From a virus, in IMG/VR virus record IMGVR_UViG_3300029263_000025, positions 1 through 31,255 of that record: a DNA stretch of 31,255 nt. The stretch is one strand, 5' to 3'. The translations under genes were made by a program, and so were the position numbers. Below, in pieces: positions 1,798 to 22,341 of the stretch. The notes below the pieces were generated by a model. That model was not told the origin of the DNA. It saw nothing but the letters and a program-made list of their open reading frames with translations, and did not search any database. Position 1 is the stretch's first letter, and every line of letters begins with the position of its first letter.

Positions 1798-1808
1798 GGA
1801 GAAGTATC

Positions 1809-3577: not shown

Positions 3578-4026
3578 TTAAAGTACGACTAATTGAGTTT
3601 GAAGATATAGCAACGCTCGCTGAGATGGGTAAGTATATGCACGCCGAAGGTGTGTTCAACAAATCCGACTACGACGTAAAAAAAGTTACAACAATGCTAA
3701 CAGATTATTACGCTGATGGAGATAAGCTATCTCTAGTCGCGGTAAACGAAGATGGCATAGTCGGCTGGTTTCTAGCGAGCCTATCAGCACATTACTTTGG
3801 CGCGACGAAGCTCGCCGTCGAGCAGTGTATGTATATTCACCCATTACATCGCGGGTCATCAGCGGCAACACGTTTTATGAAAAAGTTTGAACATTGGGCG
3901 CGGTATATGGAAGCTGAAGCGATGTTGTTTATGCCCTGTAATAATGGCGTGGATGACCGATGGGACAAGTTCGCAAAACGATTTGGATACACTCAAACTG
4001 GCTATATTTTCACGAGGAATGTTTAG
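3574..4026 (+). CDS. GNAT-family N-acetyltransferase (second of tandem pair)
   Basis: A 150-residue paralogue of the preceding gene, again ATGA-coupled. Shared landmarks are RLIEFEDIATL at the N-terminus, a central VGWFLASLSAHYFGATKLAVEQ strand-loop, the CMYIHPLHRGSSAA motif A region, and a KFAKRFGYTQTGYIF ending. The CoA-binding loop is R-G-S-S-A-A here, versus R-G-G-I-K-A in the first copy, so both keep the Arg-Gly start but not the full consensus. Similar length and spacing of motifs argue for duplication followed by divergence, perhaps giving different substrates or a heterodimer. A strong RBS (GAGGAA) for the next gene lies inside its 3' end. The target cannot be read from the sequence. 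Confidence 0.83.
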   Translation: MIKVRLIEFEDIATLAEMGKYMHAEGVFNKSDYDVKKVTTMLTDYYADGDKLSLVAVNEDGIVGWFLASLSAHYFGATKLAVEQCMYIHPLHRGSSAATRFMKKFEHWARYMEAEAMLFMPCNNGVDDRWDKFAKRFGYTQTGYIFTRNV

Positions 4027-5652: not shown

Positions 5653-5665
5653 TAGGAGAAGACTT

Positions 5666-6349
5666 ATGGGTGGATTTGGCGGCGGCGGCGGAGCACCAGC
5701 GGTTACAGCAACACCAGCGGTTACACCAACACCAGCGACGACAGGCCCGACTGTGCCAGACGGCAGCATGGCTCAGACGTTTATCACCAATAACTACGGT
5801 GAAACGCCTGACATTCAGGCCGACTATGTTCGCAAGGAAGGCGCGGCGGCAATTCCAGGTATGGGAGAAGACGACTTAGCTGCTGTGCTTGGCGGCGATG
5901 GCATGAACCAGATGTTCCAACCCTTTGCAGAACAGCGTGGCGGTGCATCATTTCTAGGCGACCAGTACGAACAGGCCGAAGGCTTGCCCAGTATGGACGC
6001 AGTAGTGTCGAACCAAAACCCGCAAGCTACAGGCGAAGGCGGTCAGGGATTTGGCAACCGAATTATCGGTGGCGAAGCAGGGGTTGAAGCTGGCGCTGTA
6101 CCAGATGGCAGCATGGAGCAGACTGACGTAGTCGGCACAGAAATGGCTTCCGACGTAGCATCGACTAACGAGCAGCCATTGCCCGGACAGGCGCTAAACA
6201 ACGACGTAGATTACGAAATGGCGATGGCGGGCGGCGGTCAGCAGGCAGGGTTTATGCCCAATTCACGTCGGGCGGCTGGTCTTGGAACGGGCCAGATGTC
6301 CCGTGGCTTGATGTCACCGCGTACAGGCTTTGGCCGGAAAATGGGCTAG
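5666..6349 (+). CDS. Low-complexity putative virion protein, 227 aa
   Basis: Unrecognised. The start ATG has AGGAGA at 5654-5659. The N-terminus is Gly-rich followed by Thr/Pro/Ala repeats encoded by an 18-bp tandem repeat. The hexapeptide VPDGSM occurs twice, at residues 30-35 and 145-150, each followed by a Q-T pair, which suggests an internal duplication or a recurring recognition or processing site. The middle is acidic and Gly-rich (QATGEGGQGFGNRIIGGEAG). The C-terminus is basic and Gly/Met/Arg-rich (RGLMSPRTGFGRKMG). The end style is shared with the two upstream virion proteins, which also finish in short basic Gly/Arg segments, hinting at a common packaging or assembly tail. No enzymatic motif is seen. 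Structural role is inferred from the operon. Confidence 0.5.
   Translation: MGGFGGGGGAPAVTATPAVTPTPATTGPTVPDGSMAQTFITNNYGETPDIQADYVRKEGAAAIPGMGEDDLAAVLGGDGMNQMFQPFAEQRGGASFLGDQYEQAEGLPSMDAVVSNQNPQATGEGGQGFGNRIIGGEAGVEAGAVPDGSMEQTDVVGTEMASDVASTNEQPLPGQALNNDVDYEMAMAGGGQQAGFMPNSRRAAGLGTGQMSRGLMSPRTGFGRKMG
5696..5737 (+). repeat. 18-bp tandem repeat
   Basis: Two copies of an 18-bp unit (ccagcggttacaNcaaca) differing at one base, followed by the first 6 bases of a third. It encodes the Ala-Val-Thr-x-Thr-Pro run near the N-terminus of the 227-residue protein and keeps the frame. Confidence 0.8.
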
Positions 6350-6358
6350 GAGTAAGGC

Positions 6359-7276
6359 ATGTTCGGAGAAACAATTGGTAATGTCGTTGGCAGCAATTAC
6401 GACGCTGGCAGCAAGGGTCGGTACAAGGCGCAAGCCTACGGCTCACTGTTTGACATGGGTTATTCCTACCAGCAGTCACGAAAAGACGAAGCCGCTTTAG
6501 ATGAGATAACTGCGCTGCAAAGACAGATTGCAGAGGCGCAAATGTCTGCCGCAGCGCAATCGTCTGCCGACGAAGCGGCGTACCGTGCAAGGATCATTGA
6601 GCGCATCAACGCAATGGACACGTCGCTCAAGTCGTCGATGGCGAAGCTAGGCGCGAGAACGCAAGTCGATGGCGACGACATCGCCGCAAACTACAAGACG
6701 TTTCGCGGGCAGATGATGGACGACTACTATGAAACCGTTGAATTGGTAGGCTCTCAAAACAAAGCCTCAGCCATACGTCGAGGCATGGACCGCTCAACGC
6801 AATTCACTGACACGCAGGCAGAGCTAATTAAAAAGTCTACAAGTCAGTTAGGCGCAATAGACCAGAGTGCTTTCGACGCAGCGATCTCGCGCAGCAAAGG
6901 CTTTGCTGATGCGATGAACTCTGGACGATCTGAAACCTTCTCCGAGCTTACAAGTGTACTTGGCAAAGCCGCCGAGATGGAAGGCCAGTTCGTTACGAAC
7001 AATGCGCCTAACCAAATGAAGAACGCTTCATCCGCGCTGGATGGGTTTGGCACAAATGCTTACAATAATTTCCAAGATAGCCAAAGCGTTATGGGTGACA
7101 CTATGGCGAGCTTTAACGAAAAGCTGGCACCTAACTTCTCCTATGGGTTTGGCGATAAAGGTGTCTACACGGACTTGGCTGGCGGTAAGGACGCTCGTCG
7201 CGACGCCGCGCTTAGGGCCGCGATTGGTGGCGACAAATATGATCAAATAGTATCAGACACGAATGAGGTTGTTTAA
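6359..7276 (+). CDS. Putative internal virion protein, 305 aa, mostly helical
   Basis: Unrecognised helical protein. RBS AGGAGTAAGG lies just before the ATG. Residues about 35-90 are Ala/Gln/Glu-rich with heptad-like spacing (DEITALQRQIAEAQMSAAAQ) and probably form a coiled coil. Few hydrophobic stretches are present and no membrane segment is clear. The size, Ala/Gln content and position just before two very large proteins recall the small member of T7-type ejection trios (gp14/gp15/gp16), but no residue-level similarity can be claimed. The gene ends in TAATG, sharing a base with the next start. Virion location is inferred. Confidence 0.55.
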   Translation: MFGETIGNVVGSNYDAGSKGRYKAQAYGSLFDMGYSYQQSRKDEAALDEITALQRQIAEAQMSAAAQSSADEAAYRARIIERINAMDTSLKSSMAKLGARTQVDGDDIAANYKTFRGQMMDDYYETVELVGSQNKASAIRRGMDRSTQFTDTQAELIKKSTSQLGAIDQSAFDAAISRSKGFADAMNSGRSETFSELTSVLGKAAEMEGQFVTNNAPNQMKNASSALDGFGTNAYNNFQDSQSVMGDTMASFNEKLAPNFSYGFGDKGVYTDLAGGKDARRDAALRAAIGGDKYDQIVSDTNEVV

Positions 7277-10239
7277 TGCGTATAGGTTCAGCTTTTCTCA
7301 AGGCACGCGACAATAAAGAAGACCGCGTACAGAAACGTCGCAGTGACAACATGGCGGCGTTCAACAGCTATGTGAAGACGCAGTCTGAGCTTGGCGTAGA
7401 AGCGTCAGTTCAAGACTTAGAGAAGATGAAGCAGAACCTTGCGGGCGGTGATTTCTTTTACGGAAAGCAGCTACCGTCATCGAACGTCATCGAAGAAACG
7501 TCATCTCGACTTGGGGCTATCAAAGCCGACAAAGAAGCAGAAGAAGCAAGGACGGTTCTGCAAAACGCGAACACAAAAGCGGATGGCATGCGAGCCTCTA
7601 TGGCAGGCTTTTTAGGCGCTAATCCTGACAACGCAGCGTGGTGGAACGCTAATAGTCAATCCGGCCCCTTAAAGGCCGTTGTTGATATGTATGGTGACAC
7701 GCAGGCTAAAGTATATCTGAAAAACTTAAATGACCGAGGGGTCGCTGAGTACATACGAGACTTTGACCTGAGTAGCTACAAGACAATTGATGGCATTGAA
7801 GCCGCTGTCTCAGCCGCCCCAGCGTGGCAGCAGCCAAAGATCAAGGCTTATTTGAAAAGCAATTTGCAGCAATGGACTAATACTGAACGCAACAATGGGA
7901 AAAACGCCGCTCAAACCGCCCTGCCAGGAATTGTGAAAAACGCGCTCACCGAAGATGCCGCTGTCACAGCCGCACTTGCAGCGGGCAAACTTGGCATGTC
8001 AGACGACGCGACCACAAATTATGCGTGGCGCGACGCCATTACCCAACAAGCAAAAGCGGCGTTCGCCTTAAGGCTGAAGCCAAGATTTACGAAAGCGCAA
8101 GGCATCGCGTCTGGTCAGAATGATAAGAATTTGTTTACGAACAAGGCAGCTCGCGATTTGGCGGTTAATAAAATACTGGCAGATGCAGAAATTTTAGATG
8201 ACGGTAGCAAAGAAGTAGACGATCTTAAGACGCAGCTAAATAACACCCTCAAGACCAACGCATCGGTTGCTAATACAGCTTTCGAAGACGCAACAATTAC
8301 AGCATTAGAAGCGAAAATTGCTCTACTACCACCCTCCACGCTAGACCACTTAACCGCCGAAGATGACCCGCAAAAAAAGGTGATGGAACTTATAACAAGT
8401 ATGGGCTTAGACCTTACTGGCACGCGCTGGGTTGATCCGAATGGCCAGCCCACTCCGTTCTTCAAGATAATTCAAAATAAAGTCTTGGCACAGATAACGC
8501 CCAAAATTGCACGCGGCCTTGTGCTGGCAAACGACGTAGACGAAGCCAACATAGAATTAGAAATTTTCGGTGGCGTTGCGAATGGAAAGGGCCAGTCTGC
8601 GGCAATCGCAGAATACATAAACATGCCACAAGACGCCGACCGTATGGGCAAGCTATTCACGGAAGTGAACCGCATACGTGTAGAGAATGATAAGCCTCCG
8701 TTTAAGTCGATAGAACTTGCCCAAGGTGACGAGGTAGACGACGGATGGACCGCAGTCTGGAAACAGCTTTCAGATCGGATTGGTTTGTCTCAAACCACTC
8801 TCTACAACACACGACGAGATGCAGCCGTCAAAACCGCCGACGCCCAAATATTAGAAGCACAGGAAACCGCTCAAGGATTGATCGGCAATTTGATAAATGA
8901 CAACGATAAGGAAAGCCCCGAATTTAAGGCTTTGAACTACGTCGTGGGGAAGTTTTTTCTACCCCAAGGCGAACAAGAGTTGAGCGCAATATACCAACAA
9001 GTTATGGATGTCATCCGAACTGAGGGCTTAACTTTCGATGATGTGGATGAAGGTGTAGAAGCTAGATACCGAATAAGCCAAGTTGTTAAAAGTTTAAACG
9101 TACTGACTAAGGCCAGTGGGCAGGCTAGATTTCGTGCAGCACTATTGAGAAAAGCCGTAGACGGCATTGTGAAGCCCGGAAGCTCTCTAACAGCTTGGGC
9201 CACAACGAACATAGACGGCTTGGACGACAAACAAATGAGGTTCACGCTCGACATGGAGGCGCTGACCCTCGACGCTGACCCCTTAATCATAGCGCAAAAG
9301 CAGAAATTATTAGATAAAGCGATAAAGAATTGGGACGCTCTTAAGATAGCCTTGGCCGCAAGCGCAGAGACACCACAGGTGGGCGGTGTGTTAGCTAACC
9401 CTGAGAAGCATGCAGCGGAGCTTACCCAAGTTTATAAGGATATTGACGAAAAGATTAAAACGCTCAAAAACACAAAGCCGACGGGAACGCCGACGTTCTT
9501 TAACCGCGACCCAGCGTCGAACCGTTTCGAGGTAAGAGAAGGTTTAGGGGACAGTGCAGAACAAATCGGTTTCAAAATGTTCACACTGTATAAGCGCGAC
9601 TTAGAAGGCGGGTTTGTAATCGACACGGCGGCTACTTTGGCGAAGTACCCAAATGGCGCACCCGCAGCGGTCGGACCAGACGGCGGTCCAACCACCAGCG
9701 CCCAGCCACCTATCATATCGCCGGAAGACAACGCCGACCCCGTGCGGTTCGCCTCACCACTAGCCGCCGAGCCACTTTATAGCAATATTGTAGACCCTTA
9801 TCGCACACTCGACGGCAAAAGTGCGCCCCGATTTATGAACCCTACTGGCGCAGCCACATTGAAAACGGTGAAGGTTAATGCGAAATTCTCAACTGGCAGG
9901 GTGCGTGCGTTAATAAACACCAAGTTCGAAACTGTTTCGGATGAAGATAAGCCAGTCGTTTCAGCTATTTTGAGGAGCGAGGCTTTTGCAAGATATCTCA
10001 CTAAGAACGATGGTAGTAAGGGGGCCATGTTCGGTGTGTGGGATGGGTACAATGGCAATAGCCTAGAAACCATGTTTGCTAACCCAAGACAGTTCCTAGA
10101 AAATATGGCTAATCTTGACCTAGAGAGCGTGGCAAAGGGGGACAGGTATGAAGCAAATCAACTATGGAAACCCACCGCAGATGAAGCAAAAAAACTATTA
10201 GCGGCTATCTCAGCCTACGAGGAAGATATGTTCGACTAG
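7276..10239 (+). CDS. Large putative internal virion protein, 987 aa
   Basis: A long, soluble, largely helical protein placed where podophages carry the gp15-like inner-core ejection protein. ATG shares a base with the upstream stop (TAATG). Residues about 1-90 are charged and coiled-coil-like. Long Ala/Lys/Asp helices follow. A Gly/Pro/Ala linker (GPDGGPTTSAQPPIISPE) lies near 800-818 and separates a C-terminal domain of about 165 residues containing FARYLTKNDGSKGAMFGVWD. No transglycosylase catalytic pattern was convincing. It ends with an amber TAG that lies in the same frame as the downstream giant gene. Function in DNA ejection is inferred from size and neighbours. Confidence 0.6.
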   Translation: MRIGSAFLKARDNKEDRVQKRRSDNMAAFNSYVKTQSELGVEASVQDLEKMKQNLAGGDFFYGKQLPSSNVIEETSSRLGAIKADKEAEEARTVLQNANTKADGMRASMAGFLGANPDNAAWWNANSQSGPLKAVVDMYGDTQAKVYLKNLNDRGVAEYIRDFDLSSYKTIDGIEAAVSAAPAWQQPKIKAYLKSNLQQWTNTERNNGKNAAQTALPGIVKNALTEDAAVTAALAAGKLGMSDDATTNYAWRDAITQQAKAAFALRLKPRFTKAQGIASGQNDKNLFTNKAARDLAVNKILADAEILDDGSKEVDDLKTQLNNTLKTNASVANTAFEDATITALEAKIALLPPSTLDHLTAEDDPQKKVMELITSMGLDLTGTRWVDPNGQPTPFFKIIQNKVLAQITPKIARGLVLANDVDEANIELEIFGGVANGKGQSAAIAEYINMPQDADRMGKLFTEVNRIRVENDKPPFKSIELAQGDEVDDGWTAVWKQLSDRIGLSQTTLYNTRRDAAVKTADAQILEAQETAQGLIGNLINDNDKESPEFKALNYVVGKFFLPQGEQELSAIYQQVMDVIRTEGLTFDDVDEGVEARYRISQVVKSLNVLTKASGQARFRAALLRKAVDGIVKPGSSLTAWATTNIDGLDDKQMRFTLDMEALTLDADPLIIAQKQKLLDKAIKNWDALKIALAASAETPQVGGVLANPEKHAAELTQVYKDIDEKIKTLKNTKPTGTPTFFNRDPASNRFEVREGLGDSAEQIGFKMFTLYKRDLEGGFVIDTAATLAKYPNGAPAAVGPDGGPTTSAQPPIISPEDNADPVRFASPLAAEPLYSNIVDPYRTLDGKSAPRFMNPTGAATLKTVKVNAKFSTGRVRALINTKFETVSDEDKPVVSAILRSEAFARYLTKNDGSKGAMFGVWDGYNGNSLETMFANPRQFLENMANLDLESVAKGDRYEANQLWKPTADEAKKLLAAISAYEEDMFD

Positions 10240-10284: not shown

Positions 10285-10311
10285 GTTTCCAACGTAGCGC
10301 GGAAACTGGAG
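10285..10311 (+). promoter_or_regulatory. Hairpin plus Shine-Dalgarno for the giant gene
   Basis: GTTTCC (10285-10290) pairs with GGAAAC (10301-10306), directly followed by TGGAG (10307-10311), which lies 9 nt before the GTG at 10321. This decides the GTG start even though the frame is open back to the upstream TAG. Confidence 0.6.
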
Positions 10312-10320
10312 TACCGTCTT

Positions 10321-13300
10321 GTGAGCAATGAAATTGACGCCATCCTTAGCAATATGGATGATGACGTTTCTGACAACGGGTCAGGAATGGGAACTAACAG
10401 CGGGCTTGGGTACGCAGCCAACTTAAACAAAGCAAACGCCAAGAATGTTTTTGCGCGGCAAGACTTTGTTCAGGACATTTACGACTACTACTACGAAAGG
10501 GACGGAAAGTCTTTTAGTGGTATCGACGAAGCAAAAGATTACTTCATGGAAGACCGCCGCTGGCGCAACATGAACCTCGTATCCATTGGCCGCGACTTAG
10601 TTGACGCTAATAATCAGTCTGATCAGCAGGGCAAAAGACTTGCACGACTACAGACTACCTTCGACGCCATGCCAAACTTCTACGAGGATGGTGGGGATGG
10701 CTGGAAAGGTTTTGCTACAAACGCTTTGGCAGTAGTGGCAGACCCAATAAATCTGATTGGTTTCGGTTCTGGTGGTGTGGCCGCAAGAGCGGCAGCGGCG
10801 GGCGTAATAGCAGGCGGCGGTAGGCAAGTCTTACAGCAGTCGGGCATGGCGGCGGTGCGAGGCACAGCATCAAGGGAAGCCTTGAAGGCGGGCATATTCA
10901 AAGGTGCATTGTACGAGGGCGGCGTGTCTGGTTTGGCCGAGGGCGTGCTAGACGTAGGGATACAAGCACGTAACACAGAGTTAGGATTACAAGACGGCTA
11001 CAGCTTGAAGCAAGGCGCTGTTGCGGTAGCTGGCGGCACGGTAATAGGCGGGGCTATGGGTGGTGCGCTTGGTGGTTTAGCCGCCAAGGTACGAAACCCC
11101 TTTTCAGACGGCATGAGCCAAACAGACCGTGGCATCCAAGACGGCAGAAACAGGGTAATGGACGCCGAGATGGACGCCGCAAACGCGGATAACATCGCAC
11201 TAGATGAGGCAAACGCAAACGCAGACACGGGCGAAACAGCCCAAGAGAGTTTCACTCGGCGCATTGGCGAGACACGGGCAGCGGTCAATCAAAGAACGAA
11301 CCTAAGTCGTGCGTCTGCGGCAGAAGGCGAACGATCAGCCAACGAACAGCGTACAGAGACAGGCCCATATGACACGCAAGACACGGATGGCGTCAATGCA
11401 GGCCAACTGACCGAAGACGACACTCTCGACTTAGCGGCTCAGAATGTTCAAAGCATGGATGAGTTGGCTCGCAAAGCGGAGCTAGACGCAACAACGGAAA
11501 CCGACTTAAACAAACGTAACGCTCTTAATGAACGTGCGGTGAAGCTACGTCGGGCGTCCGAGGCTCTGCATGGCAAGCTGGAAAGGTATCTCAGCCCCGA
11601 CGAGGTCACTAGCACTGAGCTAGTTCAAGAGATACTGCAAATTACAGACCAGAGCGATCTGCTAATAAAAATTGGCAACGACCCTGATGCGCCTCAACCG
11701 ACAGGTAATACGGGTGGCGGTACTGCTAGAAACCTGACTGGTGCAGAGGCCGACGCCGACGCCGACGTAGCTAACAATGCTGGCGCAAGACCAGGGGATG
11801 GCGGCAATCTAACTGGCGATGAGGCCGGAGATTTCAGCGACCCTCAAAACTTTACAGGTGGCGATAATCGCATGGGGCCAAATCGGCCTGAAACCGCGCT
11901 GGTTCCTGAAACTGGGCCTGAGTTATCTCAACCTGACCAAGAGTTTAAAGATCGACTTGAGGAAAGTAAGGTTATCGACACAAGGCTTGAAACAGACGTT
12001 GCAAGTCTCAATGAAGAATTAGTCGGTGAACGGCAGAAGTTTGAGACTGACAGTCCCCTCATTGGCGAAGAACCAGATATCACGGAAATACTTAAAGCTG
12101 GCGACATTGCCGAAGTCGGTGAAGCCGCCGACGCCATGAAAGTACGTCTGTCTGGTGTGGCGCAGCAGAATGGCGTGGACATATCAGGCATACCAGACAT
12201 GGAAAACTCTGGTGGCAAGGTTATTGTCGAGCGACTTAACGCGAAGCGTGCAGAATTACGAAGTGTCCAGCAAGCCAGAATAACTGAACTGGAAGCTAAG
12301 ATCGACCAGACTGAGTTACGGCGTGCTGACAACAGTAGGATAAGAGACACTGAAAAAGTAGATTACGAAAAGGCAGTTGTGGAGCGGGACGCCCGACTAG
12401 CCCAAGAAGAATTAGACAGGGAAGTTACACGGACCCTTGAGAAGCAGCGCAAAGAAGCAGTAGTAGAGCAAGCCGCAGCCGACGCACGCAATCCGTCTTT
12501 AGTCTTTGAAACGCTCAACAGTAAGTCTGATACGGTTGAATACCTAAAGTCGATAGGTGTTAGCGAAGAAGATATGAAGCCGCTTACTAATCTCGACGCT
12601 CGGACCAACAGGCCAGCGCGACAAGAAGCATTTGTCAAAATCTGGAACGAACGAATGGGCCAAGAGTTGATGGTTCAGTACGCCACTTCCCGCATGGGTG
12701 ATAATGGCCCTATCGACAGTTTCTACAACACTGACGTTTTGCCTGATAGTACCATGACCTTTTTTGAGGCCATTCTAGTCGAGCAGGGTTTTGATCCAGA
12801 CTTACGCGCAGCAGCGTTAGCCTCTCACAACAAGATATTGGATAACCCCAAAGACCTTAACGACAAAGTCTTGGAATTACATACTTCACCTGAACATATA
12901 AATAGCCCCGAACTTTTCTTTGAGGCAGCAAAAGAACGGTTTGGCAATGCGTATGCCGAGAGGCTCGCCGTGCATCTTCACGATGACATTATTAACGCCC
13001 CAATCGCCAAACTCGATAGCTACACTTACAAGCAAGATGGGATAAACGCGACGTTACCGCCAAGGGACATGGCCAGCCCGTCTGGCGAGCCGCTTTACGG
13101 TATGAAGGTAGCGGGCGCAGAAAGAACACTGCCCTCTGGCAACCTCTCGACGGAGCCGAACGCTAACCGAGATGGGCGCGTAAAAGAAATCGAAGCGGTT
13201 ATGTCCGACGCTATAAACAAAGAGCTTATGGCTTTGAAAGAGCGTGCAAGAAAGACTGCGCTCTTGGCTGGCATAACCGAAGAACAGGCAGACGCCGCCG

Positions 13301-16300
13301 CCACAAGAATTTACTACGACAAGATAGACAAGATGGTGGCTGACCGCGAAGGGTTCTTGGAGCGCAACGATGCGTTCCTTGATGGCCAGATGAAAACAGT
13401 CGCTAGTAGCATTTTAGAGATGAAGTCGGCGCGAGATGCTTACAACAAGACCCGTTCCGACTTGCCTAAAAAGTTTAATAGCAACCTTACTTCTGAGGAA
13501 GTTATTGTCCAAGAGCTTGATAGCAATGGCGAGTTAGTCGATCTGGATAAGATTAGATACACCTTAACACAGAGCGCGAAGCCGACCATTGAAGAAAGTG
13601 CTCTTTTGAACGCGCACTTCAAAAGCCTTGAGGCTCTAAGGGAGACTAAGCGTCGTTACTCAAGCACGGCTAAGTACAACGTCGTTATGAAAAACAATAA
13701 TGTTCTCCCTATCGGCCAGCTTATTATGGAAGCTGAGAACGAAATACTGACGTTAAAAAGCAAGAAGCAAACCAGCATAAAAATTATCGCGCCTAAAGAT
13801 CGTTCGTCGAAAGACATCAGCGTGGGTTTTGACGCAGGCTTGGCAGACTTCATAGGTCGATCACAAAACCGAAAGGGTGACGGCACATACGAGGTGAAAA
13901 ACAAAGTTCAGGCTATCCTTAAAGGCTCTAACATCAATGGGTACGAGGGAAAGTTGTTCCGCAGAGGGCAGAAACTTGCTGACAATGGCCGATACGAGCA
14001 ACGAACTGCGACCGCAAATGCAATCGACGAAATGCAAGCCTCTCGCATAGCGGCAGGCACGCAGCAGAGAGTGAGAGATGAAATAGAGGCCGAGCGTAAT
14101 AAGCCACGGGTCACAGAATTAGACTTTCATATTAAAAAGATCGACGCTCTCAATTCTAAAATCTATCAGGTCACTAAGAACAGAGGGTCTAACAAGCCAA
14201 TCAAGTATGATGGCAAAATAGTAACGATTGAAGAACTAACCGACTTGCGTAACTCAGCTATGAGCAAGGCTAGAGCAGAAGTTGTAAACTCATTTGACAT
14301 GGGTCCGAGTGGAAGCGTCCTGACTGGCCTAAAAGCCGAGAGAGCACGACTAACGAGCAACACGCAAAAGGGCATGCTTGGCAACCAAGCCGAGGAGTAC
14401 AACAAAAACCGTGCTCGCAACATCATGCTCAGTACATGGAACCAGATCAGGCGTGAACTGAACGATCCAAAAACGTCCGATGATCGGGTGCGACTACTGC
14501 AAACAATGACCCGCGACTTGAAACGTATGGGCAATGTTCAAAAGCAGAACGGCAAGCCTTACGATGAGAAGCTGGCAGAGAGAATTGCCACGTTCGCAAC
14601 GAAGAAGGAAGCCGCTGGTCGCAGGGCCGAGGCCGCTTACAAACGTGATGTCGAGGCTGGCATGTACGACTATGAGAACAGCAGTTACGGTGAAGGCGCA
14701 GACCGCTTTGAACCCGAAGACTTGGGCGTAGCAGATGCTTACGCCGAACAATTAGCCCGACGCGATATGGGCGAATATAAGGTTGATGAAAGCGCGACTG
14801 AGAATATGTTGTTTGGCGACAACTTACCGCCCCAGTTAAAAGACGAGGTTTTACAAGCCGCCAACCAGAAAAAAGTAGCCGAGGTAGCACGCCTAGACGG
14901 CCTAGCAGAGTACACTTTACTCTCAGCAAGGGCGCACCGAGGGGAGATTTCAGGAGATGAGCTGGTCGCTGCAATAGGCCGACTTAACCAAGAGATCAAA
15001 CGCCGAGCAGAGGCAGCGCCAGAAGAAGTAACAGTCGCGGGGCGCAAGCACGCAATAGAAGTAGCGTCTACGACTAAGGGTGTGGAAGTAGATATAAACA
15101 ACGACATCTCTTACTCTCGACCAGAAGGCAGCAAGATCGTCACAATAAAAATTGACGACGTAAAGCTGGGAGAAGCTATAGAAAAACCCGATGGCGGCTT
15201 TTCTATCATGCACCCCGATGGCCAGCGAATAAATTTTAAAAAATTTGGGCCGCTCAAGAAGTCTCTTGTTCAAATATTTAACAGGCAGATTGATGGCATC
15301 CAAGAAAAGTCTGGCAACACGCGCTTTTCAGTTAAGGAAAATGCGAAGGGCATCCCGCACGTACAGAAAGACCCCTCTCAGACTGCGACTTACAAGACTG
15401 ATCCACCTATCCCAGTCGCAAAAAACGTAGCCGCACCAGACGTAAACATAAAGCCAGAAGCCGACGCTAATGATCCGACCACTTGGAGCGGCTTAGACTT
15501 TGAAGATATGCCCGCTGGCCGTAAGCTGGCGATACAGTTCTTAGGCGATGGCCCGTTAGTGAAGCGGCAAGTCGTGCGTATGGATAACGAGAAATCCCCT
15601 CAATCAATTAGGGAAATGCTTGGGACAAGTGGCGACGTGCCATACGTCATTGGCCATGTGCAGTCTGGTGGCCCGAAGGCAGCAAGCCAAGAAACTTTCT
15701 TCCCGATGGACCCAGAGAGCATCTTTATCGACCAGCGTGGCGTTGAGGTTGTTGGGCTAGACGTGCCAGAAGGCAAGCGTGGGTTGTCTGGAAATTCACA
15801 GAGCCGACGTAAGCGTGAAAACAGGGCGTCTGACTTAAGCAAGGTCCAAGGTAACAAGCTCAAGATAGCAGAGGACGATCAAGCGTTCTTTGCAGAAATG
15901 GGCGCAGAGCTAAACACGGTAAACGATTTAGTCCTCCACATCGAAAAGCTAGAGACTGCCGATTGGCAGGGCGAAATACGATCCTTAAAGGGGTTAAAGA
16001 AGTACGCGACCGCACGTTCAGCAGCGGCACGCATACTCAAGGCAAACGTACCAAACGGCATTAAGAAGCCTACGACTACCACAGCCAAGGCGAACGAAAC
16101 TCTACGGACTATGTTCGATGGCTACCCACAGGCAGAAGTCCAAACAGCGGTAGACTTTATTGAAAGAGTGGCGCTTTTGAACGGTGGGGTTGCGCCGAAA
16201 ATGCGAGCAGGCGATAGCCCGCTATTCGACGTAAACACAAATGAGATCCAAATCGACGTAGCGAGCGGTTCAAAGACTGGTGAAGTAAGAAGCACCCCTA

Positions 16301-19300
16301 TGTCTATGGAGCTAGTGCATGAGATGGGCCACTGGGTCTATGACAACCTTCTCGACGAAGGTGATCGTCAAAAGTTCTGGTCGTCTATGGAAAAATACTA
16401 CGATGATAACGGCACCCTTAACTTCAAAGACTTAGAGCGTGGCTTGGTAGACCCGAAGTTTATCAGCAATTCCGCGTCTAACCCGCAAGAGTTTTTCGCC
16501 AACCAGTTTCTAGGGTTTGCGATGCAGACTGACGCGGTTCGCGTGCCGGGTTCCGCTTTGCACCAAGTCTTTGCGAAAGTAAGCAAGATTGGCGCTGATC
16601 TTTTGAACTGGTTGCTAGGTCGTGAGACATTTCAGATCGACAGCGACTTGTATCAAATCTTCCAGAAGCACATGCCGCAAGATGTAATCGACCCTGAGAC
16701 TAATCTGCCCACAGCGCAGCCCTCTATGTTCGGACACCTAGAAGCACTTGGCCGTGAACACGGTAATGATGGCTCAATCACCGTTGGTTCGGGCATGATG
16801 AAGCCAGCAGAATTTGCGGGCAAACAAATGCGCGTCTTAGACACACGTATCCGCGAGCTTCACGCAGCAAAACGCGCCTACCCCACAGGTCTTGGTGACA
16901 GCATGTCTCTGGCAATCGACTTAGAGCGCATAGCCAAGGAGACTTACGGTGAATATGGCGGGGCAAAGGGCCAGCCGTTCCATAAGAAAATCCCAGGAGC
17001 ACCTGAGAGCGGTAAAGCTCGGATAATGGCGCTCGACGAAACCGTTTCACGCGAGCCAATCATTCAAGCCCAGTACGCAATCCATACATTCCTCAGAAAA
17101 CTACGTGCAGAGGAAGCTGACCACAAATTCTCTACCATGCTAGGCGGCATGTCTACCAAAGACAAAGCAGCACAAGAAGCGATTATCTCTGAGATGACGG
17201 GTATGGGGGAACGAAACCAGCAGGCGATGTACGAGCGGCTGCTGACAGATAGCAAGTCGGCCTACGAAGGTCTTGATGAAGCTATCGTCGATCACTTGCA
17301 CCGCCTGTCTACTGACTTGCAGATCGCGCTACAGGGAGCGGTCAAGGAATACACGGGGATGTTCCAGAGAACTATGCCGTTCACGGAACGCAAGCGCATA
17401 GCGATAGACGAATACACAGGTGCGGCATACGTCGAGACAGATAGCCCGAAGACAGGTCGGTACAAAAAAGCGGCTCGCAAACTAGCGCGGCAAGAGCTTG
17501 CACTGTCTCAGTCTGTAAACGAAGTCGTGAGCAAGATGTCTAGCTCTGGGATTGATTGGCGCACGGTGTCTGAGAAGGATATTATCTCAGCAGCACAAGG
17601 CAGAAAAAAAGAACTAATCACAATTTCCGAACAAAGACATGAACTTGCTAGGGCGGTTTCCGCAGAGGGGGCAGAAGACTTAGGCGCGAAAGCCACAGCC
17701 TTTAACCAACTCAAGGCCAGCGAGACACACAAGTCTTTTGACTTGCCTGCTATCTTAAACCGTCTGGAAAACGGCAGCGATACACAGCGAAGACTTCTTG
17801 AAATCTTTAGAAGTGATCGCCAAGACCATAAAAACCATATGTTGAAGATTATTTCTGAGACAGACCTTGAGGACACCCACGACTTAATCATAGCTGGCCG
17901 TCATTATGGTGCGGAACTTCCAGATGCACCAAGCGCCGTTTCAACTGAGCCTATGTCTGGTGCGGTAAGCCAGTTCACAAGCTCTATCAGCGTGAGGGGT
18001 AAGGACAAAAGCCAGCAAGCGATGGCGCAAGACTTGTTCACAAAGATGACAAGAATGATAAAGGGCTTTGAAGACCCCAGCGTCAAGATTGATGACGATA
18101 TCTTTATGACCGCATACGACGTGGCGATGATAAGGAACGATCCAAACGCGCTGGACGCTGACGACATAGACATGGCCTCACCAGTTGGCGAAGCATGGGA
18201 TGATGCGCGAGATGCGATGCGTGACATGGCTGACAACGTGATAGCGATCAACAAGCTACGCGAAAAGTTCCCGTCCGAGCTAAGTGGCACTATGGAGCAA
18301 TCCGCTAAGTACGATGCTGAGATTATGAAGTACCGTAAGCCTTTGTTCGACTATCTGTATGACTTCACTTACGCACTACAGACAGGAACAGACCAGCGGG
18401 CGATCAAAGGATTGGACGCAGCAGGCGTAGAGCAAATGAAGGCAAAGTTTGCACGCATGACTACAATAGATTTCACCACGACTGATGCGTTTACAGTTAA
18501 AGGTGGGTCTACCGAGGCTAACGCTTCACTCAGAAAGATGATCGACGAAGCCGTGCAGATATTGGACGGCATCCTGTTCCAGCCACAATCATCAGCAGAC
18601 CGATTGATGGAAACCCGACGCATGGGTACTGCCGACTTGCACAGGGCAGAGCGTGACAAGCACGCTATCTTGGGAATGGTTAGAGGTGCTGACGGCCAAG
18701 CCTTGGTACACCCATCGGTCGCGAGTAAGTATGCAGATGCCTACCTAGACACTATCGGTGACAGACTTGACGGCTCTGCAAGAGACTTGACTGGCGCTGG
18801 CCCAAAGGCTGACTTAAAAAATCGCCTGAAATTCAACGTGTCGTCTGACCAAAATGTTCGGGGTGTTACATCCACACCGAATGGTCAGTACGGAGATGGC
18901 GTTTATCTCAAGAGCATTAAGCACGTAGATAAAGGTTTCGACGTAGTAGAAGTTAAGCGGGCAGCGGATGAGGCCGCAAGTTCTTCCAGACTTAACTCCA
19001 ACCAGAAGAAAGAGTTAGATTTCTCGGTCAACTCAACGATTTGGTTGCGTGAAGCTATCAGAGATTTAAACAATAAACTCGATACATCCTTTGATGAGAA
19101 GCAGCTTTTAGAGAGGCTGTTAAAAATGGATCGAACTCACTGGGGTGTAATCGACGACATAACAAATGGCCGTATGAAGGACCAGAAAGTAGCGCCCGTA
19201 TTTGCAAGGGTACGCGCACCGCTCGACCTCACAAGCAACACTCAGTATTCTTTGAATGGCGAGACAGACGGGACGATGCGCCATTTCATAATGAAGCTGG

Positions 19301-22300
19301 CCGAGGGTAGAGTGCTAGATGCAGAGGGCGTGCAGGCGGCAGTGGACGCATTTACCGCACCGATGTCAGGCCGCGAAATGTATCAAGTGTTTACGAACAA
19401 CTCGAATGGCTTGCTTCACAAGTATGGCAAGTCGAACAATGGTCCCGCCTCAAGACTAGCGTTCAACCGCATGCTGAAAGACATGGGCTACGACGGCCTG
19501 CACACCGACGAAGGCGACGTAGTCTTTAACCCGGAGATGGTTAAAGAGGCCAATAGCTTTAAACCCGAAGACAACTTACTCCATGATGGAGAGGGTTTTG
19601 GCGGGGACATGAAGCTGACGGGCCAAGTCGTCGAGGAGATGATGGTTCAGAACGGTCGTCTTGGAAACCCAACCTTTGTTGGTGTCGCACGCGAAGCGCG
19701 ACGCATGGGTATGCCGCAGGCGATACTCGACGTAACTGAAAAGGTATTCAAGAAGCGCAGTATCCAGCCCGAAGACGTAGAGAAAATATCCAAATGGTCT
19801 ACGGTCAAAAACTTCTTCCGCGAAAACTCAAGTCTATTCAGGCAGCTTGGAGCCAATTGGTTTGGTGATCAGATACAGCCCATGAGCGGTGTTGGTACTT
19901 TTGAAAAGCACGACGCACTGCTGGCCCGCAGAATGTCTCCGATCATTAGAAAGCTAAATGCTCTCCCCGATGGCGGTGGAGCATTTAAGCGGTGGAACCG
20001 CCGTAACCGTGGCCTTGCTATGGGTGCGCTGGACGCTGGACAACCCGCCAGCCACGAACGCATCATCAATGCGTTGCGCCGTGGCCGTGGTGCGGTTCAA
20101 GCTCTGGGTCTTGCGGAGCGAGAGATCGCTATGGACATAGCCAATGGCTTTAACGATGAGCTTAACCAGATGAAGGCTCTCGGAATAAAAGTGGGCGATG
20201 CACGTAAACTCGGTTCAGACTTTTATGTCCCACAAGTTTACGACAGGGAAAATATCTTATCAAACCCTAGCCGCTTTAGAGAAGGCTTAGTCGAAATACT
20301 GAAGCGCGAGCAGAACAGACCTGACTTCGATAGCCAGAGAATGACTGAGGATGAGCTTGGCAAGATCGCTGACCTCATGGCTCATAGGCTCACCAAAGGC
20401 TTTGACCCTTCGACCGACGAAGCAATACAGCAAGCACTAGGATCACCGTTTGCGGCTCGCGTCATCAACATTAAGCCAGGTGACTACGACTTTATGGATG
20501 AGTTTCTTGTGCAAGACTTGCAAGGTATCTTGGCTAAATACTACGACCGCACAATCCGCAAGCGCGTGCTGACGGAGCAGTTTGGTGTGAACGGTCATGG
20601 CTTTAACGCTTATGTAGAGACAGCCCAAGATGGCCTCGACGCTGGGGTCCAGATACTCAACAGTAGATATAGCCCGACTAACGCTGTTACGACTGAAAGC
20701 GGCATGGCGATGGTTGACGATCTGCAAATACCATCCTTACGTCTAACCCCCGATCAGTCAAAAACTTTAGTCGTGAAGCTAAAGCGCCTACTCGACGACC
20801 CAGAGACTAACGTCAACAACAAGCAGACCGCGATCAATATGATAATCGAAATGGGTGGGCCAGATGCTTACAACAATGTGCAGTTTAAAAAGCGCGTTGA
20901 GGCAGTGGTGAACGCCGCCGTAGACTTTGCTGGCCGTAAGCCTTCCAGTACGACAGTAGCCAAGATGCGTCAGATGATGGACGTGTTGAACAAGAAGCCG
21001 ATTGATGGTGGGTCAGGTCAGGAAGCACGCTACAAGGTTAGCCGTGCGCTCAAGTCTTTCACCAGCGTATCTCTTTTGGGCTTCACGACATTTACTTCTC
21101 TACCCGATATTGCTCTGCCCCTAGTTCGCAGCGGCAACATGAGAGCCTTCGCAAAAACATGGGCGAAGTATAGCACTGACCCGTCCTACCGAGCAGCAGC
21201 CAAGAACATCGGCGTAGGCATAGACAATCTTATGCACGAACGAATGGTTCAGATGGCAGGCGACGGCAACCAAAAGTTCGCCAACGCCTTCTTTAACGCG
21301 ACGTTGCTTACGCCTTGGACAAACACCATGCGTGAAGTCGCGTCCTTAGTCGGGTTCGAGAGCTTCAAGAGCGAGATTGACCGGGCTGTTCGACTAGCCA
21401 GCAAAGGCAAGAGGGGCAGCAAGTCGTATGCGACGGCTGTTAGGTATCTGGAACGCTATGGCTTGACGGGAGACAACGCCCCTCACGACTTCTTAGCGGA
21501 TGGCAGCTTTAGAATAGACATGCTCCCCAAGGACGAGGGCATTGAGATGCAAGTTCAAATGGCGATGCTTAGGTTTACCAACGAAGCGATCTTTACGCCT
21601 AATCCGAACGACGTGCCGATGTGGGCGCAGACCCCTTGGGGCAGCATGATGTTCCAACTCAAGTCTTTCCCACTAATGATGATGAAGCTACAGGGCTACA
21701 TTGTTGATGAGTTTAAATTGGGCAACGTCGCACCCGCGTTCTACATGCTTACAGCAGGCGTCGGGGCTGGTTCCCTATCGGTTGGCGTAAAAGACTATGT
21801 GTCTTTGCGGGGCGGGGATGACGAGCGTTCAGCGGAGTTTAGGAAGCGCAAGCTCACAGAAAGCAGAGCGGGCATAGCCGAGATACTTGGCGTAAAAGAA
21901 GGCGACGACCTAGACGCCGCGCTGGGGTGGTACTTGGATGGACTGCTCGCGGTTGGCGGCATGGGCCTAATCGGTGAAATGCTCTACAACACAAGCGCAC
22001 AACTCGACAATGGCAAGTATGGTTTTGTACGCACAATGTCGGCAGCGTTTGGGCCACAAGTAGGCACCGCAGAACTAGCGTTCAATGCGGCAGCAGGCGC
22101 AGGGCAAGTGATCAGCAACAAGATAAACGACGAGGATAAAAACGATAAGATCAGAAACACGTTGCGCGATATGTTCGGACGATTACCTGTGGTGGGTCGT
22201 ATCGCTGGTGGCCCAACAGGCAGGGAAACCTTCGTCGATGCAGTCGGTGGAGAGGCCAAGAAGGCAGGCCGACCAGCCAAAGGAAAACTTGGCGACAGTA

Positions 22301-22341
22301 AGTTTGGCGGCGTGGAGTTCGGAGGAGCGTTCGACAAATGA
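10321..22341 (+). CDS. Giant 4006-aa polyvalent ejection protein: zincin + ADP-ribosyltransferase-like
   Basis: A single 12-kb frame, GTG start with TGGAG 9 nt upstream. Visible order: acidic start; hydrophobic Gly/Ala segments at about 126-165 and 230-260 (GGTVIGGAMGGALGGLAA); low-complexity Asp/Ala region with NLTGAEA, NLTGDEA and NFTGGDN near 470-520; charged coiled coil about 654-723; long helical region; zincin metallopeptidase motif H2000-E2001-M-G-H2004 with probable third ligand E2057 in NPQEFFAN; another helical stretch; an ADP-ribosyltransferase-like domain about 2840-3080 (GDGVYLKS, ARVRAPLDL, GYDGLHTDEGDVVFNPEMV); and a 900-residue C-terminal region with several hydrophobic helices after 3560 (FQLKSFPLMMMKLQ near 3785). 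Zincin and ART domains joined in huge phage proteins are the hallmark of polyvalent proteins, thought to be delivered with DNA and to modify host targets. The position after internal virion genes suggests it is ejected. No T7-type RNA polymerase motifs were found, so it does not look like an N4-type virion polymerase. Confidence 0.8.
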   Translation: MSNEIDAILSNMDDDVSDNGSGMGTNSGLGYAANLNKANAKNVFARQDFVQDIYDYYYERDGKSFSGIDEAKDYFMEDRRWRNMNLVSIGRDLVDANNQSDQQGKRLARLQTTFDAMPNFYEDGGDGWKGFATNALAVVADPINLIGFGSGGVAARAAAAGVIAGGGRQVLQQSGMAAVRGTASREALKAGIFKGALYEGGVSGLAEGVLDVGIQARNTELGLQDGYSLKQGAVAVAGGTVIGGAMGGALGGLAAKVRNPFSDGMSQTDRGIQDGRNRVMDAEMDAANADNIALDEANANADTGETAQESFTRRIGETRAAVNQRTNLSRASAAEGERSANEQRTETGPYDTQDTDGVNAGQLTEDDTLDLAAQNVQSMDELARKAELDATTETDLNKRNALNERAVKLRRASEALHGKLERYLSPDEVTSTELVQEILQITDQSDLLIKIGNDPDAPQPTGNTGGGTARNLTGAEADADADVANNAGARPGDGGNLTGDEAGDFSDPQNFTGGDNRMGPNRPETALVPETGPELSQPDQEFKDRLEESKVIDTRLETDVASLNEELVGERQKFETDSPLIGEEPDITEILKAGDIAEVGEAADAMKVRLSGVAQQNGVDISGIPDMENSGGKVIVERLNAKRAELRSVQQARITELEAKIDQTELRRADNSRIRDTEKVDYEKAVVERDARLAQEELDREVTRTLEKQRKEAVVEQAAADARNPSLVFETLNSKSDTVEYLKSIGVSEEDMKPLTNLDARTNRPARQEAFVKIWNERMGQELMVQYATSRMGDNGPIDSFYNTDVLPDSTMTFFEAILVEQGFDPDLRAAALASHNKILDNPKDLNDKVLELHTSPEHINSPELFFEAAKERFGNAYAERLAVHLHDDIINAPIAKLDSYTYKQDGINATLPPRDMASPSGEPLYGMKVAGAERTLPSGNLSTEPNANRDGRVKEIEAVMSDAINKELMALKERARKTALLAGITEEQADAAATRIYYDKIDKMVADREGFLERNDAFLDGQMKTVASSILEMKSARDAYNKTRSDLPKKFNSNLTSEEVIVQELDSNGELVDLDKIRYTLTQSAKPTIEESALLNAHFKSLEALRETKRRYSSTAKYNVVMKNNNVLPIGQLIMEAENEILTLKSKKQTSIKIIAPKDRSSKDISVGFDAGLADFIGRSQNRKGDGTYEVKNKVQAILKGSNINGYEGKLFRRGQKLADNGRYEQRTATANAIDEMQASRIAAGTQQRVRDEIEAERNKPRVTELDFHIKKIDALNSKIYQVTKNRGSNKPIKYDGKIVTIEELTDLRNSAMSKARAEVVNSFDMGPSGSVLTGLKAERARLTSNTQKGMLGNQAEEYNKNRARNIMLSTWNQIRRELNDPKTSDDRVRLLQTMTRDLKRMGNVQKQNGKPYDEKLAERIATFATKKEAAGRRAEAAYKRDVEAGMYDYENSSYGEGADRFEPEDLGVADAYAEQLARRDMGEYKVDESATENMLFGDNLPPQLKDEVLQAANQKKVAEVARLDGLAEYTLLSARAHRGEISGDELVAAIGRLNQEIKRRAEAAPEEVTVAGRKHAIEVASTTKGVEVDINNDISYSRPEGSKIVTIKIDDVKLGEAIEKPDGGFSIMHPDGQRINFKKFGPLKKSLVQIFNRQIDGIQEKSGNTRFSVKENAKGIPHVQKDPSQTATYKTDPPIPVAKNVAAPDVNIKPEADANDPTTWSGLDFEDMPAGRKLAIQFLGDGPLVKRQVVRMDNEKSPQSIREMLGTSGDVPYVIGHVQSGGPKAASQETFFPMDPESIFIDQRGVEVVGLDVPEGKRGLSGNSQSRRKRENRASDLSKVQGNKLKIAEDDQAFFAEMGAELNTVNDLVLHIEKLETADWQGEIRSLKGLKKYATARSAAARILKANVPNGIKKPTTTTAKANETLRTMFDGYPQAEVQTAVDFIERVALLNGGVAPKMRAGDSPLFDVNTNEIQIDVASGSKTGEVRSTPMSMELVHEMGHWVYDNLLDEGDRQKFWSSMEKYYDDNGTLNFKDLERGLVDPKFISNSASNPQEFFANQFLGFAMQTDAVRVPGSALHQVFAKVSKIGADLLNWLLGRETFQIDSDLYQIFQKHMPQDVIDPETNLPTAQPSMFGHLEALGREHGNDGSITVGSGMMKPAEFAGKQMRVLDTRIRELHAAKRAYPTGLGDSMSLAIDLERIAKETYGEYGGAKGQPFHKKIPGAPESGKARIMALDETVSREPIIQAQYAIHTFLRKLRAEEADHKFSTMLGGMSTKDKAAQEAIISEMTGMGERNQQAMYERLLTDSKSAYEGLDEAIVDHLHRLSTDLQIALQGAVKEYTGMFQRTMPFTERKRIAIDEYTGAAYVETDSPKTGRYKKAARKLARQELALSQSVNEVVSKMSSSGIDWRTVSEKDIISAAQGRKKELITISEQRHELARAVSAEGAEDLGAKATAFNQLKASETHKSFDLPAILNRLENGSDTQRRLLEIFRSDRQDHKNHMLKIISETDLEDTHDLIIAGRHYGAELPDAPSAVSTEPMSGAVSQFTSSISVRGKDKSQQAMAQDLFTKMTRMIKGFEDPSVKIDDDIFMTAYDVAMIRNDPNALDADDIDMASPVGEAWDDARDAMRDMADNVIAINKLREKFPSELSGTMEQSAKYDAEIMKYRKPLFDYLYDFTYALQTGTDQRAIKGLDAAGVEQMKAKFARMTTIDFTTTDAFTVKGGSTEANASLRKMIDEAVQILDGILFQPQSSADRLMETRRMGTADLHRAERDKHAILGMVRGADGQALVHPSVASKYADAYLDTIGDRLDGSARDLTGAGPKADLKNRLKFNVSSDQNVRGVTSTPNGQYGDGVYLKSIKHVDKGFDVVEVKRAADEAASSSRLNSNQKKELDFSVNSTIWLREAIRDLNNKLDTSFDEKQLLERLLKMDRTHWGVIDDITNGRMKDQKVAPVFARVRAPLDLTSNTQYSLNGETDGTMRHFIMKLAEGRVLDAEGVQAAVDAFTAPMSGREMYQVFTNNSNGLLHKYGKSNNGPASRLAFNRMLKDMGYDGLHTDEGDVVFNPEMVKEANSFKPEDNLLHDGEGFGGDMKLTGQVVEEMMVQNGRLGNPTFVGVAREARRMGMPQAILDVTEKVFKKRSIQPEDVEKISKWSTVKNFFRENSSLFRQLGANWFGDQIQPMSGVGTFEKHDALLARRMSPIIRKLNALPDGGGAFKRWNRRNRGLAMGALDAGQPASHERIINALRRGRGAVQALGLAEREIAMDIANGFNDELNQMKALGIKVGDARKLGSDFYVPQVYDRENILSNPSRFREGLVEILKREQNRPDFDSQRMTEDELGKIADLMAHRLTKGFDPSTDEAIQQALGSPFAARVINIKPGDYDFMDEFLVQDLQGILAKYYDRTIRKRVLTEQFGVNGHGFNAYVETAQDGLDAGVQILNSRYSPTNAVTTESGMAMVDDLQIPSLRLTPDQSKTLVVKLKRLLDDPETNVNNKQTAINMIIEMGGPDAYNNVQFKKRVEAVVNAAVDFAGRKPSSTTVAKMRQMMDVLNKKPIDGGSGQEARYKVSRALKSFTSVSLLGFTTFTSLPDIALPLVRSGNMRAFAKTWAKYSTDPSYRAAAKNIGVGIDNLMHERMVQMAGDGNQKFANAFFNATLLTPWTNTMREVASLVGFESFKSEIDRAVRLASKGKRGSKSYATAVRYLERYGLTGDNAPHDFLADGSFRIDMLPKDEGIEMQVQMAMLRFTNEAIFTPNPNDVPMWAQTPWGSMMFQLKSFPLMMMKLQGYIVDEFKLGNVAPAFYMLTAGVGAGSLSVGVKDYVSLRGGDDERSAEFRKRKLTESRAGIAEILGVKEGDDLDAALGWYLDGLLAVGGMGLIGEMLYNTSAQLDNGKYGFVRTMSAAFGPQVGTAELAFNAAAGAGQVISNKINDEDKNDKIRNTLRDMFGRLPVVGRIAGGPTGRETFVDAVGGEAKKAGRPAKGKLGDSKFGGVEFGGAFDK

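Follow-up and report, generated by a model that had tools for sequence, protein, structure and literature searches.

A giant protein of a CRP-810-type marine phage that joins modules of a probable ejection protein to a zincin-type metallopeptidase region and an ADP-ribosyltransferase-like domain with a degraded active site

What is the role of a protein of 4006 residues encoded by a single unbroken frame of a virus? The gene in question lies in the 31,255-base virus record IMGVR_UViG_3300029263_000025, which was analysed over its whole length and is called the window below. A preliminary description made from the sequence alone had taken its product for an ejected protein that proteolyses and ADP-ribosylates host targets at the moment of infection. 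We find that this was right in outline, with a correction concerning the ADP-ribosyltransferase (ART) activity. The reading that we prefer, and to which we give somewhat better than an even chance, is that a gp16-type ejection protein of a CRP-810-type phage has been enlarged into a carrier of a working zincin and a pseudo-ART.

The gene (10321..22341; all window positions given here are on the plus strand) starts with a GTG, 9 nt downstream of a GGAG that, as read by eye, resembles a ribosome-binding site (10308..10311), and continues to the stop codon at 22341 with no internal stop. At the base composition of the window a random frame of 4006 codons would have a log10 probability of about -85. 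Furthermore, the contig L002 (relatives are designated here by L numbers) encodes a 100% identical giant protein, L004 a 1206-residue part that is likewise 100% identical, and L003, L005, L006, L007, L008 and L009 encode uninterrupted relatives of 4018-4126 codons from stop to stop, with alignment identities to the window protein of 64% (L003), 52% (L005), 53% (L006) and 33% (L007 and L009). Given the identical copy and the intact frames in divergent relatives, the frame is not an artefact of assembly, and the earlier observation of one unbroken 12-kb frame is upheld. It does fill more than a third of the window, but CRP-810 has a genome of 57.7 kb and the records of nine other relatives span 53-64 kb, so that the gene would amount to about a fifth of such a genome. 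When measured per 100 residues, identity to five relatives is 34-80% in residues 1-300, falls to 9-57% in residues 301-1600, a range that contains a fast-evolving spacer (residues 301-1560, 11221..15000), climbs again at about residues 1700-2200 and stands at 39-94% in residues 3201-3900.

Both ends of the protein point to the virion. The N-module (residues 1-300, 10321..11220) is common to the internal virion proteins of pelagiphages: in tblastn searches it recovered 19 records, with E-values down to 2e-14 over residues 43-231, 17 of which are Pelagibacter phages (one genome appearing twice), and 17 of the 19, CRP-810 among them, carry the annotation internal virion protein for the matched gene. 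A BLASTP comparison within a set of 12 sequences linked it to gp43 of HTVC121P (E 8.5e-27); an hhalign comparison of the N profile with HTVC121P was discarded as circular, HTVC121P being one of the profile's rows. The C-module (residues 3150-4006, 19768..22338), which with its 857 residues is the most conserved part, belongs with phage virion families: phrog_6958 and phrog_684, both labeled 'virion structural', are matched by 41 and 35 of 43 members respectively, and phrog_342 ('internal virion protein with endolysin domain') by 10 of them. The window's own C-module matches phrog_16310 (unknown function), phrog_684 and phrog_6958. The module also occurs in the Aeromonas phage phiA008 and the Escherichia phage TL-2011b, and in bacterial and archaeal genomes one of 80 pattern matches encoded a relative. 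A C-module is present at 96-2066 of L193, a 6.9-kb contig binned as a Phycisphaerae metagenome-assembled genome, which is likely to be a virus fragment in the bin.

Across 50,697 phage records, the Roseobacter phage CRP-810 (OR671924) was the only match over much of the second half of the protein, while the first half was matched by 19 phage records, mostly over the N-module. CRP-810 is homologous to the giant protein over the N-module, zincin, ART and C-module, and the order of the GNAT, ejection-type, lysis and replication genes in the window is the same as in CRP-810. These shared proteins and synteny identify the window as a CRP-810-type marine phage. CRP-810 is an isolate of a family that was defined with 251 uncultivated genomes and occurs worldwide in the ocean, with internal virion protein D common to all its subgroups (PMC11288001). 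The portion of that account examined names only 'internal virion protein D' and makes no mention of a giant protein, a protease or an ART in CRP-810-type phages, and a literature search found no paper uniting three of the terms CRP-810, polyvalent, ADP-ribosyltransferase and internal virion protein. PHROG matches and the gene order of CRP-810 place the giant gene next to virion (late) genes, as is typical of polyvalent proteins. Taken with the pelagiphage internal virion homology of the N-module and the virion families of the C-module, this gene order supports the earlier classification as an ejection-type protein.

To place the intervening domains in a comparative context we collected relatives in two scans, namely a C-module scan, from which 78 of 182 relatives were kept as loci, and a zincin-motif scan, from which 79 of 127 were kept, each scan retaining no more than 80 loci. 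Profiles of the N-module, zincin (Z), ART and C-module were run over 193 loci, which form 64 groups by shared sequence; these include HTVC121P and the doubtful L187, and representatives with X were excluded. The window and L003 were aligned with 53 representatives in alignment A6, 51 in A7, 44 in A8 and 41 of the 60 listed representatives in A9. The zincin-type region was modelled as residues 1850-2200 (15868..16920) and contains the sole HExxH of the protein, HEMGH at residues 2000-2004 (16318..16332), which had already been noticed in the preliminary description; Glu2057 (16489..16491), within NPQEFFANQF, is the proposed third metal ligand. The H, E, H and the downstream E are invariant in all 55 aligned members, which share 21-71% identity with the window, and make up four of the eight invariant columns. 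This invariance is partly built in because the zincin scan used the motif. Hence, we turn to a motif-free control from the C-module scan, in which 46 of 78 frames reach far enough upstream and fall into 24 groups, every one of which has the motif. The same 24 groups all have an ART match of at least 250 residues, which implies that members without the ART entered through the zincin scan.

The AlphaFold2 model of this region, built with 54 sequences (mean pLDDT 85, pTM 0.81), has, in model numbering, a helix at 88-103, three strands within 111-130 and helices at 145-160 and 206-221. The zincin fold is described as a helix, three strands and two helices (PMC5512222), and in the model the last two helices carry HEMGH and Glu2057, respectively, as expected of a zincin. 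A second structural aligner returned zincin entries nearly throughout, among them PPEP, Zmp1, ArdC of plasmid R388 and IrrE, with a best Z of 6.7 (rmsd 3.5 over 137 residues). Sequence profiles were less informative: Pfam yielded scattered weak matches in at most two of the 55 members each (Peptidase_M91, Tox-MPTase3, M48, M13 and two unrelated families), and against PDB sequences the zincin profile found no convincing relative (best 0.01, with a Pro-Pro endopeptidase at 0.8), nor did the N- and C-module profiles. With all metal-binding and catalytic residues present, the motif kept in all members and in all the unbiased groups, and a zincin-like model, the zincin that had been proposed is well supported, and this domain is expected to be a working protease.

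The arrangement of the modules is equally constant. The order N-Z-(ART)-C is seen in all 39 single-frame representatives having N, Z and C; an ART match of any length is present in 36 of these and one of at least 250 residues in 34, whereas L140, L142 and L165 have none. Seven Z-to-C stretches, taken from members whose ART match is weak, short or lacking altogether, were scanned and yielded nothing meaningful. The 37 frames that do not run off a contig are 2917-4115 residues long, with a median of 3297, and in the 39 representatives the N-to-Z distance is 453-1607 residues and the Z-to-C distance 845-1110. No locus has a frame with N and C that is without Z. In L135 and L141, which are sisters in the tree, the N-module is a separate gene situated 4.9 kb and 1.5 kb upstream, respectively. 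The N gene and the zincin-ART-C gene lie at 1295-3067 and 7979-16591 in L135 and at 4663-6309 and 7817-16507 in L141, with other open frames between them. In CRP-810 (L010 16382-26022, gp36-gp34) and in one contig behind L186/L078 the giant gene is broken by frame changes; these splits may be sequencing errors, because the gene is intact in a relative of CRP-810 (L058) and in relatives of the L186/L078 contig (L083, L152 and L189). Gene fission as a general support for separable modules was dropped, since only L135 and L141 show a true separation of the N-module. Beyond this family, the Aeromonas phage phiA008 (L195 4102-10254) encodes a 2050-residue protein with a zincin (HELGH; E 2e-8 in a five-sequence search) followed by the C-module, and in which neither an N match nor a convincing ART match was found. 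By homology, the pairing of zincin and C-module therefore exists outside the CRP-810 family.

These distributions bear on what the zincin might act upon. It occurs in phages of different hosts, together with the C-module even where neither the N-module nor the ART was found, which favors a role in ejection over that of a host-specific effector. We accordingly lean slightly, on comparative grounds, towards an ejection role, most simply self-processing. Within such a role the main job of the zincin would be to cleave the chain to which it belongs, either inside the head or after arrival, thereby freeing the modules, and action on a host protein would be the next possibility. That the zincin is instead a host-directed effector, which at infection would cleave a host protein or breach an envelope barrier, is in our view a tentative alternative of lesser probability. 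The zincins of polyvalent proteins have been proposed both for self-processing and as effectors (PMC5512222), and neither an SLT-type transglycosylase nor M23 was found at E 0.01 in any of the ten records of 53-64 kb, so that the zincin could take the place of an enzyme that opens the wall. However, other lysis-type enzymes may serve the wall, as the window has an amidase and a lysozyme domain and GH108 are each present in one of the ten records, and the retention of the motif across CRP-810 (Roseobacter), L111, whose contig has been named as a Sphingomonadaceae prophage (PMC11288001), and phiA008 (Aeromonas) fits a part of a machine better.

A further, somewhat less probable alternative is that the zincin cleaves the chain before packaging, in which case the head would hold only fragments and the zincin might not enter the host at all. 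This has a precedent in DdrB of P1, which is processed before packaging with its zincin as the predicted agent (PMC5512222), and the separate upstream gene in L135 and L141 indicates that the N-module is able to work as a separate piece. In these same two loci, however, the C-module remains fused to the zincin and ART, and the virion RNA polymerase of N4, which has a HExxH domain, is packaged unprocessed (PMC5512222). These readings overlap, and the probabilities that we attach to them do not sum to unity.

The ART-like domain (residues ~2836-3090, 18826..19590) has the signature GVTSTPNGQYGDGVYL from residue 2848 and GYDGLHTDEGDVVFNPEMVK from residue 3056. The ART-like signature previously described as C-terminal is thus present, but it is followed by the 857 residues of the C-module and so does not occupy the C-terminal end. 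ART-PolyVal (PF18760) is matched by 25 of 53 members at E 0.01 or better (best 1e-9). The match of CRP-810 gp35 (E 7e-5, 24 bits) lies below the cut-off, and three of the ten records of 53-64 kb have a match, one of them above the Pfam cut-off with 40.6 bits. The active site of this ART class comprises a His in strand 1, a Tyr in strand 2 and an Asp in strand 5 (PMC5512222). In the window the corresponding positions read Asn2839 (18835..18837), Tyr2862 (18904..18906) and Asn3070 (19528..19530), such that only the Tyr of the H-Y-D triad is retained. At the first position His is found in 37 of 53 members (38 with L094, where it is one position off) and Asn in nine, to which the window and the relatives nearest to it belong; 48 of 53 retain the Tyr and 30 of 53 the Asp of the canonical enzyme. 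A pattern-based count, the His pattern of which missed L028 and L094, gives a complete H-Y-D in 20 of 53 members. L003, L005 (row L014) and L006 (row L025) have kept the Asp and have Asn in place of His. An ART-like signature does not by itself imply an active ART, and judging from these residues the window domain is probably inactive as a canonical H-Y-D enzyme. With two of the three active-site residues being Asn, the proposal that this protein ADP-ribosylates host targets is not supported. Nevertheless, in comparison with L003 the nonsynonymous divergence of the ART core is 0.197, as against 0.189 for the zincin and 0.359 for the spacer (synonymous sites being near saturation), which suggests that the domain is under some constraint though its canonical site has been lost.

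An AlphaFold2 model of residues 2760-3140 (pLDDT 86, pTM 0.79) had as its first Foldseek match chain B of 9k3a, from the pre-ejectosome of cyanophage A4 (E 0.036, probability 0.94). The second aligner placed 9k3a fourth (Z 8.2, rmsd 4.2, 156 residues aligned); all other rows listed were aligned over 100 residues or fewer. Chain B of 9k3a is ORF27 of the Anabaena phage A-4L, which displays YHGT, GSGTYFS and VGVDALTDGDTTLVINPD near residues 1425-1600, and by our own reading these would constitute an ART signature; an hhalign comparison of the ART profile with ORF27 gave a partial match with a probability of 47%. ORF27 differs from the giant protein in having no Pfam family, no HMMER match with the ART profile of the family and no HExxH. 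Taken together, these weak resemblances suggest, without proving it, that the ejection core of an actual virion, that of cyanophage A4, contains an ART-type domain. The degraded active site in the window and this resemblance could both be accommodated if the two enzyme-like domains served the ejection core as structural components and lacked catalytic activity. We regard that as improbable given that the H, E, H and E of the zincin are conserved in 55 of 55 members at 21-71% identity to the window. The window ART itself would be kept as a pseudo-enzyme or a structural piece, while other members have an apparently complete active site.

The enlarged gp16-type protein that we prefer would operate as follows. 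The N- and C-modules, by homology, may form the ejection machine and see to the packaging of the chain. The zincin and ART-like domain are placed between these modules, and also between two moderately hydrophobic regions, namely a Gly/Ala-rich stretch at residues 135-250 (10723..11070) and stretches within residues 3576-3932 (21046..22116). By analogy with T7 gp16, the two enzyme-type domains might reach the cytoplasmic side. Cytoplasmic delivery is a natural reading of hydrophobic ends with a zincin and an ART between them, though one weakened by the modest hydrophobicity. A stronger version, to which we attach only a tentative and clearly lower probability, is that the zincin is an obligatory protease in the ejection machine of a whole ocean phage family, every particle delivering it within the channel-building protein, and that the ART is an optional weapon which in the lineage of the window has turned into a catalytically dead component with a structural role in the ejection core, at which the resemblance to cyanophage A4 hints.

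Several results weigh against the enlarged ejection protein, or against parts of it. Structural support for the zincin is modest: the best Foldseek match has an E-value of only 0.045, with none below 0.001, and Z in the second aligner is at most 6.7. As such Z values are not strong alone, the case is carried by the agreement of the rows and by the motif lying on the right helices. The first four Foldseek matches are to anthrax lethal factor, a protein that Iyer and colleagues likewise connected with the N4 RNA polymerase zincin (PMC5512222). MPTase-PolyVal (PF18818) has no match in the window record at E 10, and the window's own ART domain has none with ART-PolyVal in the member scan or in the scan of its own record; the Pfam families that had been anticipated are thus matched by relatives in the case of ART-PolyVal, but neither is matched by the window. 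Direct Pfam and PHROG scans of the full-length protein gave no useful match, and the same holds for Pfam scans of two relatives' proteins and of L003. Five of the 39 representatives have a short ART match or none, and compared with L005 and L006 the nonsynonymous divergence of the ART core (0.32 and 0.37) is like that of the adjoining linker (0.36). For the ART model three helical proteins outrank 9k3a in the second aligner (Z 8.3-8.6, 82-96 residues aligned); the matches listed include no ART enzyme, which is not proof of absence. Against PDB sequences the best match of the ART profile (7e-4), a designed coiled coil, was no convincing relative. Modelling therefore recovered the zincin fold with modest scores, whereas the ART assignment comes mainly through the profile matches of relatives. 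The C-module has no match with gp43 of HTVC121P. The hydrophobic segments formerly noted near both ends stand as regards their placement, as 14 of the 15 peaks of at least 0.9 fall in residues 135-250 or 3576-3932, which alone is notable. They are, however, only moderate: the Kyte-Doolittle maximum (19-residue) is 1.49, with no window segment reaching 1.6, three of eight relatives reach 1.61-1.73, and the 15 peaks are fewer than the mean of 24.9 in shuffled sequences. Finally, direct evidence of packaging was not found, as would also be the case if the giant protein were absent from the particle; this we consider very unlikely indeed, in view of the homology of both its ends to virion proteins and the location of its gene among late genes.

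The neighborhood of the gene offers two further candidates for the ejection machinery by order and size. The 987-aa protein encoded directly upstream (7276..10239) is possibly a second ejection protein; it has no PHROG family and is, by eye, conserved chiefly near its start and otherwise highly divergent (15-32% identity to five relatives). A 305-aa protein (6359..7276), possibly a third, has weak PHROG matches of unknown function. Within the tail/ejection block there are also two tandem GNAT-type acetyltransferases (3122-3577 and 3574-4026; phrog_1249, E 2.8e-13 and 8.7e-21), at the place of which CRP-810 has one GNAT gene. The first gene of the window (1-1797), cut by the record start, has matches among virion families, those of tail fibres and baseplates included; they fall mainly within residues 97-246, possibly a common surface domain. 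At the other end, a gene after that for the primase-polymerase (29927-30487) has a weak match that is sigma-factor-like or DNA-binding (E 3.7e-4). Neither a tRNA nor an Rfam family at gathering score was found in the window.

How does the giant protein compare with known systems? Like the polyvalent proteins (PMC5512222), it combines zincin and ART-type domains in one huge protein beside virion genes. Of the two disparate enzyme-type domains expected at the least in such proteins, the zincin is well supported and the ART is recognized through relatives, and is probably inactive in the window. It differs from the polyvalent proteins described there in that the two modules of an ejection-type protein, N and C, enclose these domains, and in that its zincin has no MPTase-PolyVal match and its ART neither the His nor the Asp. 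The short-tailed phage N4 shows that a protein of 3500 residues can be ejected, one whose HExxH domain precedes a large helical portion at the C-terminus (PMC12633501). This virion RNA polymerase (gp50) shares with the window protein its giant size, the HExxH and a weak similarity of zincin profiles (probability 23%, pairwise E 9e-4), whereas no polymerase was recognized in the window protein and the C-terminal parts have no match (probability 0.5%). T7 gp16 is described as having a periplasmic N-terminal part and two putative membrane regions, with the part between them placed in the cytoplasm (PMC8954989). Its likeness, and that of the pelagiphage internal virion protein D, to the window protein lies in the pelagiphage-homologous N-module and, by order and size, in a position behind two smaller candidates as the block's largest protein. 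The differences are one of size, with 4006 residues against 1281 in HTVC121P and 1318 in T7 (PMC8954989), and homology to internal virion protein D that is confined to the N-module in the comparison with HTVC121P gp43; moreover, no SLT domain was found in the window at E 10. As regards the two membrane regions, the window protein has moderately hydrophobic regions at both ends. CRP-810 itself shares the gene order and all four modules, although there they are distributed over three overlapping frames, gp36 (N), gp35 (zincin and ART) and gp34 (C), which are a single frame in its relative L058. Should the largest protein of CRP-810-type phages indeed prove to be an ejected carrier of a protease, two research fields, the one on how short-tailed phages eject their genomes and the one on injected effectors of the polyvalent kind, would meet in CRP-810 and its Roseobacter host, a system available in culture.

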